Positions 60,059 through 63,201 of a stretch of 64,000 nt of DNA are shown piece by piece. The translations under genes and the position numbers were made by a program. Source of the DNA: an uncultured Clostridia bacterium (GTDB lineage Bacteria; Bacillota; Clostridia; Christensenellales; Borkfalkiaceae); NCBI GenBank assembly GCA_944367045.1, contig CALVWI010000006.1:32709-96708 (forward strand). The letters are read 5' to 3'. Every line of letters starts with the position of its first letter. The stretch's first letter is position 1. The notes beneath the pieces are model-generated. The model worked only from the letters and a program-made list of their open reading frames with translations. It did no database searches and was not told the DNA's origin.

Positions 60059-60100
60059 ACATTTTTCACCGTTTTTCGGGAGCGGCTCGGCGGGAGAAGG

Positions 60101-60204
60101 GCACGCGGAGAGAAGGGCGCGCGGGGAGAAAGGCACGCGGGGAGAAGGGTGCGCGGGGAGAAGGGCACGCGGGGAGAAGGGTGCGCGGGGAGAAGGGCGC
60201 GCGG
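60101..60204. repeat. Minisatellite of 16-bp units (6.5 copies) ending in an 18-bp hairpin arm
   Basis: The unit G(C/T)(A/G)CGCGGGGAGAAGG starts at 60101, 60117, 60133, 60149, 60165, 60181 and 60197. Unit variants GCACGC, GTGCGC and GCGCGC alternate. The last copy merges into GCGCGGCGGCCGCCCGCA (60199-60216), which pairs perfectly with 60220-60237. The block lies between the end of the lipoprotein gene and the T-box promoter. Frames open through it but have no ribosome binding site. Confidence 0.9.
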
Positions 60205-62034: not shown

Positions 62035-62211
62035 TCACTTTTCGTTGACGGAGATCTCAAACTTCTTTCCGTCGGGCAAGGTATAGGTGAGCTTCCCGCC
62101 CTCCTGAACGCACTCGCCCACGAAGTACTCGTCGACGAGCGGCTTCAACGATGCCGCAATGTCCTCCGCCGTGACGACTGCGCCCTCTTCAAAAACGTGT
62201 TTCTCTTGCAT
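62035..62211 (-). CDS. Small acidic protein (58 residues) behind a structured leader, function unknown
   Basis: A strong AAGGAGGA lies eight bases before the ATG at 62211, and the frame runs 58 codons to TGA at 62035-62037. The product starts MQEKHVFEEGAVVTAEDIAA, with KLTYTLPDGKKFEISVNEK at the end: acidic, one helix followed by a beta hairpin, no signal or membrane segment, one Cys. No family is recognised. The gene has its own leader, promoter and terminator, so it is a complete transcription unit. That control over so short a protein is the main reason to trust it as real. Confidence 0.75.
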   Translation of the reverse strand: MQEKHVFEEGAVVTAEDIAASLKPLVDEYFVGECVQEGGKLTYTLPDGKKFEISVNEK

Positions 62212-62226
62212 CTCAAATTCCTCCTT

Positions 62227-62375
62227 GAAAAATAATAAAGCGTGCCCCCAAAGGAGACACGCTGCATTGGTATCTCCCGGAATGTGGGCACAAACCGCTG
62301 CATACGAGAAAAGAGATACGAAATGCCATTTCGTATCGTATACAGCGTATCCGCAGGTGATATTTGTTTGTGCCC
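62227..62375 (-). ncRNA. Structured leader RNA with terminator; candidate orphan riboswitch or attenuator
   Basis: The predicted RNA starts at 62375 exactly at helix P1 (GGGCACAAAC 62366-62375 with 62286-62295). An 18-nt one-sided bulge follows, then P2 (12 bp, 62336-62347 with 62296-62307, one G-U) and P3 (9 bp, 62329-62337 with 62315-62323; its last two bases compete with P2). After a single-stranded GGGAGATACC region, AGCGTGTCTCC (62253-62263) pairs with GGGGGCACGCT (62239-62249) and runs into TTTATTATTTTT: a terminator two bases before the ribosome binding site. ATGCAGCG occurs both in P2 and just before the terminator stem, so P2's 5' arm could pair with either. Confidence 0.7.
62239..62263 (-). 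terminator. Terminator within the structured leader
   Basis: An 11-bp stem including two G-U pairs (62253-62263 with 62239-62249), loop TTT, followed on the minus strand by a T-rich tract at 62227-62238. Confidence 0.8.
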
Positions 62376-62381
62376 ATCGTT

Positions 62382-62410
62382 ATTATAGCATGGCTTTCTC
62401 CAAAAATCAA
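62382..62410 (-). promoter_or_regulatory. Promoter of the structured leader
   Basis: Minus strand: TTGATT (62405-62410), 17-nt spacer ending TGC, TATAAT (62382-62387). The predicted start, seven bases downstream, is 62375, the first base of helix P1. Confidence 0.85.
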
Positions 62411-62444
62411 GACGAAAGACGAAAAATCAGGCGAAATAAAAGCG

Positions 62445-62833: not shown

Positions 62834-62850
62834 TGCCGATACTTCATTTT

Positions 62851-63201
62851 CTCAAACGGCGCAAGGTGAACGCCGTTTTCGGTCACCGCTCGCGCAGGGA
62901 GAATGCGCTCGCTCATCTCGCAAGCGGAAAACAGCACACCGTGCTGTTTTTAGAACGCCCTTGCTCGTCTCAAACGGCGCAAGGTCAACGCCGTTTTCGG
63001 TCACCGCTCGCGCGGGACAATGCGCTCGCTCATCTCGCAAGCGGAAAACAGCACACCGTGCTGTTTTTAGAACGCCCTTGCTCGTCTCAAACGGCGCAAG
63101 GTCAACGCCGTTTTCGGTCACCGCTCGCGCGGGACAATGCGCTCGCTCATCTCGCAAGCGGAAAACAGCACACCGTGCTGTTTTTAGAACGCCCTTGCTC
63201 G
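62851..63201. repeat. Three tandem 117-bp units with two hairpins each
   Basis: Units start at 62851, 62969 and 63086 with CTCAAACGGCGCAAGGT. Units two and three are virtually identical; unit one has a few changes and one extra base. Each unit carries AACGGCG...CGCCGTT and AAAACAGCAC-ACC-GTGCTGTTTT hairpins. A 117-bp period keeps frames open on both strands, but no start with a ribosome binding site serves them. Confidence 0.9.

Follow-up and report, generated by a model that had tools for sequence, protein, structure and literature searches.

What is the long structured leader that precedes a 58-codon gene in this stretch of DNA, and which of its strands, if any, do the switching? The window (the whole stretch analysed, 64,000 nt from an uncultured Clostridia bacterium) carries on its reverse strand a promoter, a series of helices, an intrinsic terminator, and the gene, in that order (Table 1). 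The initial annotation, made from the letters of the sequence, had read this as an orphan leader with the logic of a riboswitch or attenuator, belonging to no class that it recognised, and with the 5′ arm of helix P2 as the strand that chooses between partners. The general idea is supported by the covarying relatives of the leader, the lack of an Rfam match, and the maintained order of leader, terminator and gene; the P2-arm strands proposed for it are not supported as a conserved switch. The best reading is a new class of transcription-terminating, riboswitch-like cis-acting leader. More specifically, the RNA probably forms the 5′ leader of the message that it controls, belongs to a new class, and attenuates transcription in cis, with five strands competing for partners.

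Much of the architecture first described for the window is borne out. The promoter does have an extended -10 element, an unpaired run of 18 nt does lie on one side between P1 and P2, and the U-rich tract is followed closely by a ribosome-binding site and the gene; the lengths given for P2 (12 bp) and the terminator (11 bp) were also right, but P1 has 11 pairs rather than 10, and P3 has 8 rather than 9. The leader RNA (62382-62227, reverse strand) has a folding energy of -63.3 kcal/mol, compared to -36.6 +/- 3.7 kcal/mol for 200 dinucleotide shuffles (z -7.28); the window fold also draws a short hairpin of 4 pairs inside the J1/2 bulge. As in an attenuator, a promoter-proximal leader thus carries an intrinsic terminator ahead of the gene start. 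Since a second terminator-like hairpin lies 3′ of the 58-codon gene, the transcription unit looks monocistronic; a promoter-like sequence precedes the next gene. Two sets of tandem repeats were also noted in the window: a 117-nt unit in three copies with 98% matches (62850-63201, in the long stretch beyond the leader promoter), and a GC-rich 16/32-nt repeat with about seven copies of the 16-nt unit (60092-60204), adjoining a small predicted gene.

Table 1. Features of the leader and its gene, in window coordinates.
Feature	Coordinates	Strand	Description or basis
Promoter	62410-62382	-	TTGATT 62410-62405, 17-nt spacer, TATAAT 62387-62382; TG-n before the -10 (extended -10)
P1 5′ arm	62376-62366	-	Partner 62295-62285, 11 pairs; fold and covariation (helix 1)
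P1 3′ arm	62295-62285	-	Fold
J1/2, one-sided 18-nt bulge	62365-62348	-	Conserved AUA
P2 5′ arm	62347-62336	-	Partner 62307-62296, 12 pairs; fold and covariation (helix 2)
P2 3′ arm	62307-62296	-	Fold
P3 5′ arm (strand A)	62335-62328	-	Partner 62324-62317, 8 pairs; fold and covariation (helix 3)
Apical strand (B), GCAUUUCGUAUCUC	62326-62313	-	Loop, P3 3′ arm and next bases
Linker (strand C)	62280-62262	-	Between P1 and terminator
Intrinsic terminator hairpin	62263-62239	-	D 62263-62253, E 62249-62239, 11 pairs; covariation (helix 4)
Terminator U-rich tract	62238-62228	-	Sequence
Ribosome-binding site AAGGAGG	62226-62220	-	Sequence
58-codon gene	62211-62035	-	ATG at 62211
Terminator-like hairpin	62028-61994	-	16 pairs; 3′ of the 58-codon gene

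The term "orphan" proved wrong in number. A DNA search found further copies in the window's genome and genus, and two covariance models were built, R1 from ten copies and R2 from 109. By R2, the window genome has four clear copies, on contigs 6, 11, 16, and 19; a fifth match (E 0.9) is the opposite strand of one of these. Four clear copies in one genome, together with the covarying relatives described below, make the leader more than a chance fold. Matches extend well beyond the genus, at E limits that were unequal between the searches: R1 matched 81 of 101 genus genomes (E 0.01) and 69 of 396 order genomes, representing 31 of 142 genera (E 0.001); R2 matched 69 of 391 class genomes, representing 43 of 222 genera (E 0.001); and a sample of 299 phylum genomes gave a match in the window's own genome alone (E 0.0001), at least nine of the non-matching genomes also belonging to Clostridia. 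Eight genomes picked for richness have 8-16 copies each, the highest number, 16, being found in one genome. The loci studied were taken from the best matches, and are therefore biased toward strong copies.

A pattern scan of named genomes yielded 65 stretches, mainly under titles of uncultured Clostridia; the named taxa include Candidatus Gallimonas, Borkfalkia, and Coproplasma. R1 accepts 57 of these (E 0.001). The remaining eight, titled Desulfonema, Nitrospirota, Bacteroidetes (two), Chloroflexi, and Lachnospiraceae or Ruminococcus (three), seem to be chance hits of the pattern. Two strong copies that R1 does score are found under unexpected titles, a proteobacterium (L097) and Candidatus Scatousia (L123), and are perhaps on mis-binned contigs. 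One shortened copy (L030, 1414-1563), in which the promoter and P3 region are recognisable and the linker and terminator were not found, is perhaps a decaying remnant. A mobile-element origin was considered and set aside: searches of the plasmid and phage collections with the leader DNA of the window gave no match, and neither did an exact-pattern search of viral contigs for the main genus subtype (a search that divergent copies would fall outside).

The helices P1, P2, P3, and the terminator are real. Among 108 distinct copies, 36 of the 38 pairs show changes in both partners, and 95.2% of cells are paired, compared to 36-53% when the partners are slid by 1-3 columns; among 64 class-level copies, 37 of 38 pairs do so and 97.1% of cells are paired, compared to 32-54% in the slid control, although all of these counts lean toward the model, the alignments having been fitted to the same structure that they count. 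P1 and P2 vary almost freely in sequence with pairing kept, even among copies within one genome. The covariance-model check that the initial annotation had proposed thus recovers, with R1 and R2, homologues whose helices covary. Upstream of the terminator, P1-P2-P3 forms a conserved, covarying, sensor-like domain with few conserved unpaired bases. Outside the four helices, conservation is found in the AUA of J1/2 (A in 89%, U in 90%, and A in 86% of 72 non-redundant copies), in a few bases after P3, and in some around the start and core of the linker.

Membership of a known Rfam family, which would have told against the original proposal, was looked for with the 4227 models of Rfam 15. At gathering thresholds, only four tRNAs, all elsewhere, were found in the window, and again only tRNAs in 20 genus or order loci and 20 class loci. 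Looser scans (E <= 5 or 1) gave overlaps below threshold with SurA (13 bits against 100 needed) and MIR949 (18.3 against 100) in the window and with ncS025 (27.2 against 46) in locus L180, all of which are at chance level. The motif was likewise not recognised in the accessible portions of the literature searched (including PMC8040213, PMC11109978, PMC8632094, PMC6429828, and PMC13273304), whose survey supplements may hold it as an unnamed candidate.

The switch first proposed relied on the occurrence of ATGCAGCG twice, as the 3′ arm of P2 and again at the start of the terminator, and this duplication is indeed present in the window. Pairing of the P2 5′ arm with the second ATGCAGCG is feasible there (-11.6 kcal/mol, or -14.3 with longer arms), but is not conserved across copies: apart from the window copy, just three others carry the shared 7-mer, which makes 4 of 75 copies in one set and 4 of 107 in the other. 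In a strand-swap test, which sets each copy's strand against its own partner and against partners from other copies (with permutations that ignore phylogeny), the model's 8-nt arms gave z values of 0.0 (73 copies) and -0.2 (104). Because these arms truncate the window's own P2 arm, the test was repeated with longer ones, giving -1.6 (75 copies) and -1.0 (107). The P2-arm switch is taken as a peculiarity of the window copy.

A different pairing is found in the copies at large. The apical strand B has two possible partners, the P3 5′ arm and the linker, the latter being complementary to it in the window over 62276-62264. In divergent copies compared by eye, loop and linker change together (GUAUCUC:GAGAUAC, GUACCUC:GAGGUGC, and GCGUCUC:GAGACGC). 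A column count over the seven main pairs of this pseudoknot finds that 96.3% of cells hold and that five pairs have changed in both partners, compared to a mean of 94.7% and 1.4 pairs for shuffled controls, and 31-66% of cells for slid ones. In the strand-swap test, the apical strand prefers its own linker with z -15.0 (75 copies) and -10.0 (105). Since this signal and that of the antiterminator (below) could mirror each other, the linker was split into two parts, dropping copies without a recognisable linker G-core (2 of 75 and 1 of 105). The 3′ part against the apical strand then gives z -10.9 (73 copies) and -4.1 (104), while the 5′ part, as a control, gives 1.1 and -0.1, and the 3′ part against the terminator gives -1.5 and 0.9. 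The class set, in which 60 of 65 copies were used after removal of duplicates and of rows without a linker G-core, has a pseudoknot z of -9.8 and a control of 0.7; a thinned set of 21 copies has -7.1 (none of 5000 permutations as good) and a control of -1.1. Pairing of the apical loop with the 3′ part of the linker, as a pseudoknot, is well supported. Three loci (L017, L018, and L025) have divergent "type B" copies, with an apical loop CCAUUGNGCGG that matches a linker CCGCCGAUGG; these precede 82-aa relatives of the 58-aa protein.

The linker may have a second face. In the window, 62278-62270 is complementary to the terminator 5′ arm at 62260-62253, as a potential antiterminator. The column count over its eight pairs gives 95.6% of cells, three pairs having changed in both partners; 270 of 500 shuffles also reach three doubly changed pairs, and the 21 doubly changed cells exceed all of them. 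Strand swapping of the whole linker against the terminator 5′ arm plus loop gives z -13.8 and -10.6 (75 and 105 copies). With the linker split, the 5′ part plus G-core keeps this preference (-10.8 and -11.6) and, as a control, has none for the apical strand (-0.7 in both sets); the very short 5′ part alone gives -0.5 and -2.4 against the terminator. Two faces are therefore present in both main copy sets (A5/A6). In the class set the antiterminator z is -5.0 and its control is equally strong (-5.3), and in a thinned set of 11 copies the values are -2.6 (34 of 5000 permutations as good) and -2.4 for the control (53 of 5000). Pairing of the 5′ part of the linker with the terminator 5′ arm is thus supported as an antiterminator, with reserve and less strongly than the pseudoknot.

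The minimum free energy structure of the window leader contains only hairpins and the terminator; ViennaRNA, with which it was drawn, cannot draw pseudoknots. The energies calculated for the pseudoknot (-16.0 kcal/mol), antiterminator (-14.4), terminator (-15.6), and P3 (-8.8) in the window are of like size, which suits a switch. P3 is compatible with the antiterminator and the pseudoknot with the terminator, while strand B and the linker core are contested, which together suggest an attenuator of five strands. The RNA would start at P1, and strands A to E would compete. As long as P3 (A:B) held, the linker C would be free to pair with D as it emerged, forming the antiterminator; E would then have no partner, and the polymerase would read into the gene. 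Were B instead to leave the P1-P2 domain and pair with C in the pseudoknot, the D:E terminator would form and transcription would stop before the gene. A fold-back at the J1/2 bulge may be what lets B reach C. On this scheme a signal favouring the pseudoknot would silence the gene and one favouring P3 would activate it; this is presumably the direction of control, with a ligand or a protein presumably setting the choice.

The placement of promoters and genes across the copies bears on a second possibility, that the RNA is an independent small RNA acting in trans, perhaps through its shared apical and linker sequence, with the gene reached by leaky read-through. By simple in-house rules (used for all promoter, ORF, signal, and lipobox counts given here), an extended -10 (TG and at least 5 of 6 positions of TATAAT) is present at the expected place in 131 of 148 copies, compared to 1.9% of shuffles; a score of at least 6 is reached by 137 of 148 (11.5% of shuffles), and in 108 of these 137 the -10 ends exactly at the model start. 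An own promoter and terminator for each copy would suit a small RNA. So would the ten loci with two same-strand copies 33-108 nt apart (L006, L027, L064, L101, L116, L132, L146, L199, L237, and L263), with promoter-like sequence for both members in the seven pairs examined, and the 14 of 148 copies with no ORF within 200 nt. Of these 14, however, two run into a contig edge, three stand first in a tandem pair, and in one (L161) the ORF that follows falls short of the 30-aa limit. The other 134 are followed within 200 nt by an ORF of at least 30 aa with a ribosome-site-like motif, at a median gap of 32 nt, and in 119 copies the ORF lies within 60 nt. A small RNA would moreover leave the co-change of the linker with the terminator arm without a reason, and would not account for first ORFs rich in exported proteins. 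The tandem and ORF-less copies, some of which are unlike simple leaders, keep a trans-acting role as a minority reading, but an unlikely one.

As to the first ORFs themselves, many copies precede lipoproteins and BspA-type or other exported proteins. Among 109 first ORFs (of 131 distinct ones, those omitted being mostly very short, doubtful, or near-duplicate), LRR_5 domains of the BspA type are found in 32, LRR_8 in 20, and Zn_Ribbon_1 in 8. Among 50 class-level first ORFs, LRR_5 is found in 15, Cu_amine_oxidN1 in 3, and CHAP and SLH in one each; the two tallies overlap, the 50 consisting of 37 (of 39 class ORFs) plus 13 shared with the set of 109. Because these genomes are rich in LRR_5 proteins (17-95 domain matches per genome in nine genomes of the window's genus), the size of the LRR_5 excess is inexact. 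Signal-like starts are predicted for 61 of 108 genus or order first ORFs and 37 of 61 class-level ones, compared to 54 of 576 control ORFs, a contrast that is overstated because the controls (at least 150 aa, on either strand of the same loci) include many that are surely not genes. First ORFs shorter than 100 aa make up 33 of 108 and 18 of 61, respectively. One annotation rule placed 26 of 118 first ORFs under "other" and 9 under "none."

As a third possibility, there might be no switch, the RNA being a plain terminator behind a stable hairpin, kept as an insulator or mRNA stabiliser. The best window fold, of hairpins and terminator, is what this would predict. It would leave unexplained the bias toward exported-protein genes, the co-change of the apical strand with the linker, and the conserved AUA of J1/2, and seems highly improbable.

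Fourth, the leader could be autoregulatory, bound by the 58-aa protein or by another protein of the regulon that sets termination. All four 58-aa homologues detected in the window genome have the RNA upstream (all four clear copies precede them), as do close homologues at 9 of 9 loci searched in three genomes. Against the 58-aa protein as the binder, the RNA is class-wide while, of 25 genera in the homologue-search sample, a single one yielded the protein, most copies elsewhere precede unrelated genes, and no RNA match above noise was found upstream of distant homologues at 12 of 12 loci. These distributions make the 58-aa protein unlikely as a general regulator; another protein may be the binder, but a protein-bound autoregulatory leader is highly improbable overall. 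The protein belongs to no Pfam family; an AlphaFold model (mean pLDDT 87.3) has one helix and three strands, and gave no convincing match to solved structures (best E 0.35). Boxes resembling TTCGACAAA recur, by eye, upstream of the RNA-less distant homologues (L036-L040, L042-L044, and L046), which may have another, DNA-level regulator.

Finally, leader-peptide attenuation, in which a ribosome starting within the linker (GGAG-n6/7-RTG) and crossing the terminator would decide the outcome, is rejected as a general mechanism for want of a conserved leader ORF and is scarcely credible: in the region of window 62278-62265, genus copies do have GGAG followed by ATG, GTG, or TTG at ribosome-site spacing, and a start codon lies 4-10 nt past the linker G-core in 101 of 117 genus or order copies, but control starts at 11-17 nt occur nearly as often (97 of 117), the start codon is present in 2 of 26 class-level copies, and its frame is no more open than others (medians of 25, 31, and 22 codons).

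To return to the five-strand attenuator, the many exported targets suggest a cue connected with the envelope or lifestyle. It may be proposed, tentatively, that the leaders form a Clostridia-wide riboswitch class in which the pseudoknot between loop and antiterminator strand senses such a signal and switches adhesins, lipoproteins, and small proteins together; within that proposal, a second messenger would fit as the signal. The RNA offers a handle on the control of BspA-type surface proteins in uncultured Clostridia, as a single structural class with many copies per genome, whose candidate switching strands can be read from the sequence. If a small molecule is bound, it would be a new riboswitch class; if a protein is bound, a new regulon-wide RNA-protein switch.

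Several known systems have properties that invite comparison. Transcription-terminating pseudoknot riboswitches, such as that for fluoride, are 5′ leaders with mutually exclusive helices around an intrinsic terminator. The window RNA resembles them in being a 5′ leader with a pseudoknotted, sensor-like domain and exclusive helices at such a terminator; it differs in having no Rfam match, and in that the partner of its pseudoknot is the antiterminator strand, so that the pseudoknot is predicted to favour termination. Amino-acid attenuators of the trp type alternate between pairings 1:2 and 3:4 and pairing 2:3. The chain of alternative pairings is similar, but here there are five strands, one of them pairing out of a closed domain, and no conserved leader peptide. 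The raiA motif (ModT), a structured RNA conserved in Bacillota, has a terminator close by; the loci scanned have no Rfam match to raiA, and the window RNA, unlike it, is a multi-copy leader. Going by the portion of its description available, the nearest published system is the SLH motif, reported as a candidate orphan riboswitch in Synergistaceae, Clostridia, and Negativicutes, with about 60% of examples preceding S-layer-homology genes (PMC6429828). As far as that description goes, the two are alike in having surface-protein genes downstream and in occurring in Clostridia, and appear to differ in their target genes: SLH domains are found in 1 of 50 class-level first proteins, and are absent from the 25 families shown of the 45 in the 109 first proteins. 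Attenuating leaders as a kind are already known; this class, and its pseudoknot to the antiterminator strand, appear to be new.
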